From assembly GCA_028718125.1 (NCBI GenBank), contig JAQUMN010000008.1, forward strand, positions 1-64,000: a stretch of DNA of 64,000 nucleotides, read 5' to 3'. The position numbers and the translations under genes were made by a program. Below are positions 31,834-63,015 of this stretch, piece by piece (positions within the stretch are counted from its first letter, which is position 1; every line of letters begins with the position of its first letter). Under the pieces are notes generated by a model. That model ran no database searches. It was not told the DNA's origin and saw only the letters and a list, made by a program, of their open reading frames with translations. This DNA comes from Kiritimatiellia bacterium (lineage in GTDB: Bacteria; Verrucomicrobiota; Kiritimatiellia; JAAZAB01).

Positions 31834-33651
31834 ATGAACGAAAATTGTACTTCGACCACAACCTCCATACCGCCTTGGATCGTCATCCTGTGCCTGCTGA
31901 TCTCGCTGTCGGGGATTGCCGATCACGACCTGTGGACGCCGGATGAGCCGCGCGAAGCGGCGATCATGTTGAGCATGAGCCGCACCGGCAATCTGCTTAT
32001 TCCCGATCTGGCGGGTGCGCCCTTCGTCGAAAAGCCGCCTTTATATTACATTGTCGGTGCCGGCGCATTGCACCTGCTTGCTTCCCTGCTGGGGCCTACT
32101 ACGGCCTTGCGGCTGACATCGGCCCTATGGGGGTTGGGCGCTCTGGCCATGACGTGGCTGATGGCCCGGCGTCTGCTGGGACGCGCGCAGGGGATATTGG
32201 CCATGGTGCTCCTGGCCACCATGCCCGGGTTTATTCACGTCACGCATTGGATGCTGGTGGATAACGCGCTCCTGTTTTTCGTCACGGCGGCATTGTGGTG
32301 TTTTACCGAGGCCTATATCGGCTCGCGCCTGGGATTCCTTCCGTGGGCGGCGCTCTTTACCGGAGGGGCTTTCCTTTCAAAGGGATTCATCGGTCCCCTG
32401 ATCGTTCTGCTGGGCTGGTTGGGCCTGGTATTTTCCTGGGGGCGGCAGGTGGGCTGGCGAGGGATGAGCCAACCGCGCAGTCTCGGCCTGCATGGCCTGG
32501 CTTTATTATTTTGCCTGGCCCTGATGCTGAGTTGGATGTTGGCCTTGCGCATGTTCGGCGGGCCGGAACTGTGGAACGAATGGTTCTGGGCAAATCATGT
32601 CGGGCGTTTTTCCGGAGGCGCGACCCAGTTAGGCCATATGCAAGGTCCGTGGTATTACTTGCAGGTTATTCCCGTTTATCTTCTGCCCTGGCTGGTGGTT
32701 GTGCTGGTAGGGATTAAAAACCTGCTGGTGGCGCTGTGCCGCGGGCAGATGACGCCGGCGGGCCGGGTGCTGGCCGCCTGGGCGCTGGGCGGCTTGCTGG
32801 TGCTTTCGATTACGGCCACCAAACGTGACATTTATCTGTCGGTTTTACTGCCGGCATGTGCCATGATCGGCGCCCAGGTATTGCATGCGCCGATGACACG
32901 GCCGCTTCAAAATACCCTTTGGATGTGGGTCGGATGCATGCTGGGCGGGTTGCTGGTTCTTGTTATCGCGCCGTTGTTGGGCCCGCAGGCCCACCTGTTG
33001 ACGGGCGGGTGGGGGTGGTACCAGGTAATCGCGGGGCTTACCGCACTGGGTTGCATTAGTCTTGTTTATGTGCCTCGAATTCGGTTTGGGAAAGGCGTCC
33101 CCCTTCGCGAAGACGCTTCGGCGGGACACGGTGGCGATCCCGCGAAGCGCGGGATAAATCTTGGGCCGTGTTCTGTGTTCTTATGCCGTTATCTGTCCTC
33201 CGGCGTCCGGCGTCCGGCGTCTGGCGTCTGGTGTCTGTCTTTTCTTCACCGGGTGTTGGCCGCCACGGCCGTGTTTTTTATTGGCGTCCTGATGGTCCTG
33301 TTTCCCATGCTTGACCGGGTAAAAAGTTACGGGGCCGCCTTTCGCAATATGGCTGGGTATGTTGCGGCCGATCCCTCCGCCTGCGTGGCCGGCTGGCGAT
33401 TTGATGAAACCACGCGTGCCGGTTTTTATTACTATTGTGACTTGGTATTTCCGGCGCTTTCCGATATAAACGATCTCAACCATGTTCTGGGCCGGCGGCA
33501 TTCCCGGTTTGACGGGGTCTTGGCGCTATCCCGGAATTTTATGCCGGAAGCGGAATCCCTGCCGCCCTGGCAGGTGCGTGCGGAAGTCCGGATGGGGCCG
33601 CGCCGGGCGTTGCAATGGATCGAAGGGGCCGTCAGGGCAAAGCCGCCTTAA
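31834..33651 (+). CDS. ArnT-like lipid-linked glycosyltransferase, 2 (with repeat-coded insert)
   Basis: A 605-aa polytopic transferase with HDLWTPDEPREAAIM and AGAPFVEKPPLYY, the two ArnT-type loops. AAAAGGATTGGC precedes the ATG. Between membrane helices, residues about 418-470 are replaced or extended by repeat-derived sequence. First comes a GC palindromic part (CCCGCGAAGCGCGGGA in 33130-33160), then heptamers (33196-33240) read as SGVRRPASGVWCLSF. The frame is kept open, so the enzyme may still fold with a long loop. Its stop codon touches the 195-bp repeat. Upstream of arnB/arnC-like genes on the same strand. Confidence 0.85.
   Translation: MNENCTSTTTSIPPWIVILCLLISLSGIADHDLWTPDEPREAAIMLSMSRTGNLLIPDLAGAPFVEKPPLYYIVGAGALHLLASLLGPTTALRLTSALWGLGALAMTWLMARRLLGRAQGILAMVLLATMPGFIHVTHWMLVDNALLFFVTAALWCFTEAYIGSRLGFLPWAALFTGGAFLSKGFIGPLIVLLGWLGLVFSWGRQVGWRGMSQPRSLGLHGLALLFCLALMLSWMLALRMFGGPELWNEWFWANHVGRFSGGATQLGHMQGPWYYLQVIPVYLLPWLVVVLVGIKNLLVALCRGQMTPAGRVLAAWALGGLLVLSITATKRDIYLSVLLPACAMIGAQVLHAPMTRPLQNTLWMWVGCMLGGLLVLVIAPLLGPQAHLLTGGWGWYQVIAGLTALGCISLVYVPRIRFGKGVPLREDASAGHGGDPAKRGINLGPCSVFLCRYLSSGVRRPASGVWCLSFLHRVLAATAVFFIGVLMVLFPMLDRVKSYGAAFRNMAGYVAADPSACVAGWRFDETTRAGFYYYCDLVFPALSDINDLNHVLGRRHSRFDGVLALSRNFMPEAESLPPWQVRAEVRMGPRRALQWIEGAVRAKPP
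33196..33240. repeat. degenerate heptanucleotide array inside an ArnT-like gene
   Basis: Units read CCGGCGT three times, then CTGGCGT, CTGGTGT, CTGTCTT. In frame it codes GVRRPASGVWCL. Similar GCCGGAC-type units recur in both orientations after topB (38532-38690). Confidence 0.8.
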
Positions 33652-45953: not shown

Positions 45954-47012
45954 ATGATTAGAGCAAAAATTGTCGGTGCGGGCGGGTATGGCGGGGTCGG
46001 GATCATCGAGCTGTTGCTGGGCCATCCGGGGGCGAAGATCGCCTGCCTGGTGGATGTTGAAAGCGTGGGCTTGCCCATCAGCAGTCTATATCCGCATTTG
46101 ACCGGATTTTGCGACATGCCGATCGTTGCGGCGTCGGATGCAAAAGCCCGTGAGCCGGTGGACGTTACGTTTATGGCCACTCCCGACGGGGTTGGCATGA
46201 AGCTTGCCCCGGCGGAATTGGCTGCCGGCGCCAAGGTGATTGATTACAGCGGCGACTTCCGTTTCAATACCCCCGAAAGTTACGCCGATTATGCCACGCG
46301 GATCGACAAAGACCCCAAGCATGCCTCGCCGCAGTTGCTGGCGGAGGCGGTCTATGGTGTGGCCGAATTGCATCGGCAGGCATTGACCGGCAAAACGCGC
46401 CTGGTGGGCAACCCGGGCTGTTTTGCCGTCAGTTGCATCCTGGGCCTGGCGCCTGCCGTCAAAAACGGACTTGTGCGGCTGGAGAGCCTGATTTGCGATT
46501 GCAAGACGGGGGTGTCCGGCGCCGGCAAGAAACCCAGCGCCGGCTTTCACTATCCGGCGCGCTATGATCACATGAATGCCTACAAGCTGGCGGGCCACCA
46601 GCATGTCTGCGAAATTGAGCGGGAGCTGGGATCGCAGGCCGGCAAGACGCTGCGGGTCACCTTCACCGCCCAGGTTGTGCCGATCTGCCGGGGCATCATG
46701 TCGTCGCTCTATGGCGAACTGCTGCCCGGCGTGAAGCCCGCGGACGTGCAGGCGGCCTACCGGGCCTTTTATCCGGCCGGCGGGTTTGTTCGCCTGTTCA
46801 ACCGCGAGGCCGGCATCGGCAGCGCTCATGTACGGGGCACCAATTACTGCAACCTGATCGTGGATGTGGATGAGCGCACCGGCAAACTGCGGGTGATCTC
46901 GCACATTGATAATCTGATAAAAGGACAGGCCGGCTCTGCGCTTCAGAACATGAACCTGATCTGCGGCCTTCCGGAAAAAGCCGGCCTTACCCAGCCGGGA
47001 AAATACCCGTAG
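45954..47012 (+). CDS. argC: N-acetyl-gamma-glutamyl-phosphate reductase ArgC
   Basis: Third step of arginine synthesis. The 352-aa protein has IVGAGGYGGVGIIELLLGHP, ATPDGVGM, VIDYSGDFR and nucleophile C156 in VGNPGCFAVS. SGAGKKPSAGFHY and HQHVCEIE (substrate His) follow, and the C-terminal GSALQNMNLICGLPEKAGL is typical of long-type ArgC. No other arg gene is nearby. Its end lies 16 bp before a heptamer array. Confidence 0.96.
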   Translation: MIRAKIVGAGGYGGVGIIELLLGHPGAKIACLVDVESVGLPISSLYPHLTGFCDMPIVAASDAKAREPVDVTFMATPDGVGMKLAPAELAAGAKVIDYSGDFRFNTPESYADYATRIDKDPKHASPQLLAEAVYGVAELHRQALTGKTRLVGNPGCFAVSCILGLAPAVKNGLVRLESLICDCKTGVSGAGKKPSAGFHYPARYDHMNAYKLAGHQHVCEIERELGSQAGKTLRVTFTAQVVPICRGIMSSLYGELLPGVKPADVQAAYRAFYPAGGFVRLFNREAGIGSAHVRGTNYCNLIVDVDERTGKLRVISHIDNLIKGQAGSALQNMNLICGLPEKAGLTQPGKYP

Positions 47013-47027
47013 CATTATTTTCGATTT

Positions 47028-47065
47028 GCGATTGCTGATTTTCGATTTTAGATCGAACGTGTCTG
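47028..47065. repeat. heptamer array, left arm (TTTCGAT type)
   Basis: Units TTTCGAT, TTGCGAT, TGCTGAT, TTTCGAT, TTTAGAT. It is the inverted counterpart of the ATCGAAA array at 47150-47209. The ~85 bp between the arms holds AAGGATTCCTTCCGGAATAT, a small palindromic stretch. Confidence 0.75.
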
Positions 47066-47149: not shown

Positions 47150-47209
47150 AATCGAAAATTCTTCCATATGTCTTCAATCGAAAATCGAAAATCGGCAATC
47201 GAAAATTCC
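47150..47209. repeat. heptamer array, right arm (ATCGAAA type), reaching into a CDS
   Basis: Units ATCGGCA, ATCGAAA, then ATCGAAA, ATCGAAA, ATCGGCA, ATCGAAA. In frame it codes the first residues (SIENRKSAIENS) of the Mur-ligase-like protein and includes its likely start codon. Confidence 0.8.
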
Positions 47210-62197: not shown

Positions 62198-62905
62198 TCA
62201 GTTAATCATTTCCAGTATGACATCGTCCACGTAAAGGACGCCGAATTCCTGGCCGCCGGTGTTGCCGCCGATGGCGAATAGGTGGACAACCAAAAATTGA
62301 ATTTTATCACAATTTTCCCTGGCCAGTTTGCTCATCTTGGGATCGGGAAACGCATATGAGGCGCTGGTCCAGCCCTGATTCCGCGTGATCCCGCCCATGA
62401 TGCCGGATTTATCCGCGCCGAAATAAAGCCGGTCGAACCGGTAGCATTTGCGCAATTCCGCGAGTTTCGGGTGGGCGTGCGGTTTAATGCCCGGCCGCCA
62501 GCGATAGCCTTCCACGAAAATGCGGCAATCCGGCCCGGAGGTTTTTGCGATAGCCGTGAGCTTGTAGCGGGCGCCGGGAACGATGGGAATAGGGTCGCTA
62601 TCCACCGTCACGCCCTGGTTCCAAAGGTGGTCCTGATCGGCCTTCAGGGCGAGCACATGCTTCTTCGAGCCTTCATTCGTGACGCACACGAAAGTGTGGT
62701 TGGCGGCAAGCCATTCGTTGCCGGTGTCCTCGTAGTTATATTTCCAGCCATGCAGAAATTCGTTCGTATCGTCGAAATGGCCGTTGACTGCCAGGTTCGG
62801 TCCCGCCCAGGCAGAGGAAAGAAGAAATGCAGAATGCAGAATGAAGAATGCAGAATGAAGAACACCGGAACGAATCTTTCGCCCTTTAAATAAATATTGC
62901 GACAT
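62198..62905 (-). CDS. secreted carbohydrate-binding-like protein with repeat-derived signal peptide
   Basis: A 235-aa protein. The signal peptide (about 1-34) has the core HSAFFILHSAFLLSS, coded by a heptamer array at 62825-62860. The mature part starts GPNLAVNGHFDDTNEFLHGW, a CBM4/9-like (galactose-binding-like) opening, with a later FGVLYVDDVILEMI strand, as in that fold. AATATTTATTT-like AT-rich sequence precedes the start; no good ribosome-binding site. It stands between the GATase-like and DUF4175-like genes. Confidence 0.7.
   Translation of the reverse strand: MSQYLFKGRKIRSGVLHSAFFILHSAFLLSSAWAGPNLAVNGHFDDTNEFLHGWKYNYEDTGNEWLAANHTFVCVTNEGSKKHVLALKADQDHLWNQGVTVDSDPIPIVPGARYKLTAIAKTSGPDCRIFVEGYRWRPGIKPHAHPKLAELRKCYRFDRLYFGADKSGIMGGITRNQGWTSASYAFPDPKMSKLARENCDKIQFLVVHLFAIGGNTGGQEFGVLYVDDVILEMIN
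62825..62860. repeat. degenerate heptanucleotide array coding a signal peptide core
   Basis: Units AATGCAG, AATGCAG, AATGAAG, AATGCAG, AATGAAG on the plus strand; on the minus strand they read as HSAFFILHSAF in the signal peptide of 62198-62905. Confidence 0.85.
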
Positions 62906-62978
62906 ATGCTTGCGCCCTCATTGTGTAAATTATGTGCTTTTTGCGGATAATTGTACGGCCTTGTAATTTTGCCTGTCT

Positions 62979-63015
62979 GTAAATCGCAAATCCGATATCG
63001 AAAATCGAAAATTCT
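62979..63015. repeat. degenerate heptanucleotide array
   Basis: Units AATCGCA, AATCCGA, TATCGAA, AATCGAA, AATTCTT end right at the stop codon of the gene at 63020. Same family as the arrays at 47028, 47150 and 53622. Confidence 0.7.

Follow-up and report, generated by a model that had tools for sequence, protein, structure and literature searches.

The closest described systems are the GGGAATC and GGGGA(C/T)T repeats of Xanthomonas and Nostoc, which consist of about four 7-nt units and are mostly intergenic (PMC4692102). Their purine-rich strand is the coding strand where the repeats follow stop codons and the opposite strand where they precede start codons, the nearest gene is about 28 nt away on one side and about 160 nt on the other, and inverted pairs are convergent (PMC4692102). 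TAACTGA repeats in Beggiatoaceae, Cyanobacteria, and Bacteroidetes form 7-nt arrays just 5′ of start codons; they are sometimes located within ORFs near the ends, and their reverse strand is stop-free (PMC4679880). In Yersinia, the RU-2/YPAL MITE makes up part of the signal peptide of YPO1552, the relatives of which have unrelated signal peptides (PMC2759123, PMC2229807).

The repeat considered here was found in a 64,000-nt stretch of a Kiritimatiellia bacterium (contig JAQUMN010000008.1, positions 1 to 64,000; the window), where a CTKCATT array (AATGMAG on the opposite strand) encodes the core of a predicted signal peptide. It shares with the Xanthomonas/Nostoc heptamers the 7-nt tandem units, usually about four, the polar placement, and the inverted pairs in spacers. 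The unit itself differs, and tandem AATGMAG contains no GG and therefore lacks the G-tracts of those repeats, which could form G-quadruplexes. This places it outside the GGGAATC family, as a member of the wider kind only, and signal peptides are not mentioned for the known repeats (PMC4692102). The TAACTGA repeats are likewise 7-nt arrays near starts, at times inside ORF ends, with one stop-free strand; they differ in the unit, in a forward strand with stops in all frames, and in the role proposed in the sections consulted, which is translational regulation and not export. RU-2/YPAL is alike in being a dispersed intergenic repeat turned into part of a signal peptide, but it is a 168-bp element at few loci, whereas here a frame-independent 7-nt array is involved in many families and phyla. 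Earlier reports of heptamer-derived signal peptides were not found in the open-licence literature. Polar inverted arrays and one MITE-derived signal peptide are thus known, and the recurrent, frame-independent recruitment of a heptamer array as signal-peptide core appears to be new.

The AATGCAG/AATGAAG array claimed in the initial annotation is real. Five units occupy 62826–62860 (minus strand in the CTKCATT sense), and TRF reports a period of 7 and 5.3 copies at 62826–62862. Three-unit matches occur at this site only within the window and in none of 100 dinucleotide shuffles. The window's own genome (G000, 4.13 Mb) was compared with congeners (G001, G002, G003, and G004), all draft assemblies. 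G000 holds 6 exact pattern matches and the congeners 9–33, which suggests a rapid turnover of the repeat among these species. A second heptamer family, ATTTTCG, lies at 62981–63012 on the minus strand, a few nt past the upstream stop codon, and G003 and G004 carry AATGCAG units at this site.

Arrays in the genus are mostly intergenic and contain 3–8 units, usually 4–5. In 66 of 71 arrays, the closer gene boundary, either the start or the end of a gene, is found on the 3′ side of CTKCATT (p about 1e-14, with orthologous sites all counted), and the median distance is 5 nt on this side versus 126 nt on the other. The other sets show this bias less strongly (45/72 and 30/47). Many spacers contain inverted pairs, with AATGMAG after the stop and CTKCATT before the start; a partner is located upstream in 38 of 79 arrays and downstream in none (both arms of a pair counted), and the arms vary in unit number and spacer length. 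The array in the window, unlike many in the genus, has no inverted partner. RNA folding of the inverted pair of G003:C16 was better than that of shuffles (z −3.0). The leader in the window folded no better than shuffles (z +1.1), and a hairpin role for it was set aside. The TCGTCYG family as a general coder of n-regions was also dropped, being upstream in only 2 of 79 arrays.

Other heptamers are found elsewhere. A membrane protein of the PMT family (Pfam PMT/PMT_2, 31834–33651) has TCCGGCG/TCTGGCG heptamers in its coding sequence (array at 33199–33237), and its G002 relative L107, 77% identical, has CTGCATT units at the matching place, so that different heptamer families occupy one site. An ATTTTCG/CGAAAAT inverted pair (47017–47053 and 47176–47206) lies just past a gene ending at 47012. 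The reversed control pattern TTACKTC gave 5–17 matches per genome in G303, G304, G053, and G307 (family f7), which suggests the spread of a further heptamer family in these genomes.

The array lies within an ORF at 62198–62905 (minus strand) for a 235-aa predicted exported protein. As judged from 14 other genomes with an orthologue (E values between 1e-104 and 1e-18; identity ranging from 69% in the genus to about 30% elsewhere), this ORF is a genuine gene. The start codon and basic n-region MSQYLFKGRKIRSGV (62861–62905) are preceded by GAGG (62916–62919), a possible ribosome-binding site 10 nt before the ATG. The array begins 15 codons in and encodes the putative h-region LHSAFFILHSAF, which is followed by LLSSAWA and GPNLAVN. 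The complete N-terminal segment reads MSQYLFKGRKIRSGVLHSAFFILHSAFLLSSAWA, and cleavage is read between it and GPNLAVN. The layout of basic N-terminus, array-coded core, and AWA-type site described in the initial annotation is therefore seen on the minus strand. The label “carbohydrate-binding-like” is weak for the mature part (62198–62803). Pfam gave no match for the window protein, which did not reach the CBM_4_9 cut-off, and CBM_4_9 matched 5 of 15 orthologues with a best E of 0.002. A PDB profile search returned one weak match, to hyaluronate lyase (E = 0.035), and an AlphaFold model of the mature protein computed with no alignment supplied was unusable (pLDDT 33).

Whichever of the three sense frames is read, a 7-nt unit encodes a single cyclic heptapeptide. 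The peptide had been described as hydrophobic “in this phase”; the hydrophobicity stands, but it is the property of every sense frame and not of one. Translated CTKCATT gives LHSAFCI/LHSSFFI throughout, forming the predicted h-region ahead of AWA/G. Among the heptamer classes free of stops, the CTGCATT form (ILHSAFC, KD 1.63) ranks within the top 9%, and CTTCATT yields ILHSSFF (KD 1.30). The heptapeptide is only moderately hydrophobic because it contains His and Ser. The reverse strand encodes the hydrophilic NAECRMQ, and pure AATGAAG gives a stop. In a simple KD calculation, deletion of the array lowers the best 12-residue hydrophobicity of the window protein from 1.92 to 0.77, which agrees with its proposed function as the core of a predicted signal peptide; across the three array carriers, values of 1.92/2.20/2.18 fall to 0.77/1.28/1.20, and array-free orthologues have 1.65–2.34. 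Regarding Sec signal peptides, the n-region is basic with a net charge of +4 before the hydrophobic h-region, and small residues are present at −3 and −1 of the signal peptidase I site as read from the sequence (A32-W33-A34/G35, with A-W-A at 62804–62812, minus strand, in the same register as in array-free orthologues). We infer recognition by SecA or SRP and cleavage after AWA.

The array, GAGG, and ATG are common to G000, G003, and G004, the N-termini of the latter two being MSLYPLSFVRRPASGLFRHSAFCILHSAFFLLSASAWAGSN and MSPCFLRKGWTTRAGILHSAFCILNSAFFLLTASAGWAGSN, respectively. Between the ATG and the mature domain, the pairwise gaps among the three are 3, 3, 6; 3, 9; and 3, 3 nt, whereas those in the 5′UTR are 12, 1, 2, 14, 1; 16, 1, 14; and 4, 2, 1 nt. 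Gaps in multiples of 3 downstream of the ATG and not in the 5′UTR are expected if the reading frame is protected. This evidence indicates that the array is translated as part of the 235-aa ORF.

A 7-nt unit near a start codon could also act as a phase-variation switch, in which gain or loss of a unit shifts the frame of the gene and turns export off, possibly besides a role as h-region. The Haemophilus HMW1A locus is phase-variable via a heptanucleotide repeat, according to the abstract of PMC8262952. Such a switch is improbable here, as the array has only 4–5 imperfect units, the three orthologues all keep the frame and their arrays contain no 7-nt indels, and the majority of arrays are untranslated and lie next to housekeeping genes. 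In the genus, arrays are for the most part untranslated and directly adjoin start or stop codons, which would fit an untranslated 5′ leader with the start codon located 3′ of the array. Translation starting past the array had been named in the initial annotation as an outcome that would contradict it, and it is unsupported: in G000, no ATG, GTG, or TTG occurs between the ATG at 62905 and the mature domain. The protein would then also miss the signal peptide present in its orthologues; together with the ATG and GAGG kept in three species and the confinement of 3-nt-multiple indels to the region downstream of the ATG, this makes a leader very unlikely.

Array-free orthologues show what stands at this place otherwise. 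G001, from the same genus, has the ordinary signal peptide MKTWLIIPTACLLLTATAHGGSN and no array, and ordinary signal peptides in the same register also begin the orthologues from other families, for example MKTGVFLRLSLWLLILPTAFGASN (among distant orthologues only clear N-termini were counted, and a few, such as L017, are ambiguous). Because array-free orthologues carry ordinary signal peptides there, the array is best read as a replacement of the h-region in an already predicted-exported protein, that is, as the remodelling of an existing signal. That a noncoding repeat had become the export signal holds in so far as it forms the predicted core; it was swapped into an existing signal and is not its origin, and the proposed “cheap route to new secreted proteins” does not hold. 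The array does supply the h-region, but that it first gave an export signal to a protein until then cytoplasmic is hardly credible given these orthologues and the other recipients (M16, lipoprotein, SusD, BatD), which are typically exported. In the gene tree, G001 is weakly placed outside G000, G003, and G004 (support 0.365), so that a single gain of the array and a gain plus a loss are inseparable.

The array recurs as a core in three further families of the genus. An M16 protease (Pfam E = 5e-47) has it in G001, G003, and G004, with no array of this family in G000. A TSP3-repeat protein has it in two G004 copies and in G000, with an ordinary signal peptide in G001. A lipoprotein uses it in G001 (MKFLKYFFILHSAFCILFLAGC) and not in G003, G004, or G000; the G003 protein (MKIYLQFIGLIFCVLTLAGC) is 68% identical to that of G001 and has an untranslated array 17 nt upstream of its ATG. 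This pair shows the putative captured and uncaptured states together, and is neutral as to the direction of change. About 98 nt comprising 5′UTR, ATG, array, and cleavage region are common to a G004 TSP3 protein and a G002 protein with an unrelated mature part.

Genes of the genus in which the array is left upstream of the coding sequence mainly encode cytoplasmic proteins or membrane proteins that have no signal peptide. The neighbors of untranslated arrays include ParB, XerC, GspE, GlmS, a PolA-type exonuclease, RibD, and IGPS, among others, and are mostly not exported. Counted by family, 4 of 4 captured versus 1 of 15 uncaptured cases are exported (Fisher p = 0.001; hand classification made after seeing the data, with two prepilin/TadE-like cases left out as ambiguous and, outside the main family, the array assigned inside or outside the coding sequence partly by judgement of the start codon). 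XerC in G003 and G004 has an additional in-frame ATG upstream of the array. Prepilin-like (ILHSAFTLIEVLL) and TadE-like genes (L125 1478–2044, L122 1486–2124, and L111 2006–2632) run in frame into an array and have no clear start codon.

The recurrence extends to other bacterial groups. A scan of GTDB genomes gave at least 118 stretches, many in Bacteroidales and others in Planctomycetota, Verrucomicrobia, Acidobacteria, Cyanobacteria, and Clostridia. Three Bacteroidales genomes contain 78 arrays, 17 of which overlap an N-terminus in the sense direction; about ten of these overlaps are clear signal peptides by eye. They belong to four SusD-family lipoproteins (e.g., MKSYHIKSFATPLLAFFILHSSFFVFSSC), a GH106 protein, an arabinofuranosidase, a TPR protein, a lipoprotein, and BatD with a neighboring TPR protein. 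A histidine kinase (Bacteroidetes sensor kinase) has one more array-containing N-terminus. In a Prevotella-type genome (L399 1253–3942), the adjacent BatD and TPR genes have a nearly identical array-containing N-terminus (WRCMLCMSFFILHSSFF), which suggests that a signal peptide was copied between neighboring genes.

These sites are probably explained by capture, in which a polar intergenic (CTKCATT)n array, aimed into the adjacent gene, would be taken up by the 5′ end of the gene for a predicted-exported protein and replace the h-region of its existing Sec signal peptide. As the arrays are directed out of the spacer and towards genes, any that overlap a 5′ end would be read in the hydrophobic sense; how they spread is presumed rather than shown. 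Capture would be tolerated because the unit is stop-free and encodes one hydrophobic heptapeptide in every sense frame; the number of units would thus be irrelevant to hydrophobicity, provided that the downstream frame is kept.

A wider reading is offered tentatively and is rather doubtful: CTKCATT arrays may serve generally as mobile donors of signal-peptide cores, being polar, intergenic, hydrophobic in any frame, and recurrently captured by exported proteins of several phyla. They may also move cassettes of start codon plus signal from one gene to an unrelated one, the 98-nt cassette of G004 and G002 being an example. Signal peptides tolerate a wide variety of sequences, and the birth of new ones is seldom observed. 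Near relatives with and without a repeat-derived core, found several times, make the replacement of an export signal by a noncoding repeat directly testable. For annotators, N-termini of the ILHSAF or ILHSSFF type can represent either a real signal peptide or an untranslated leader.
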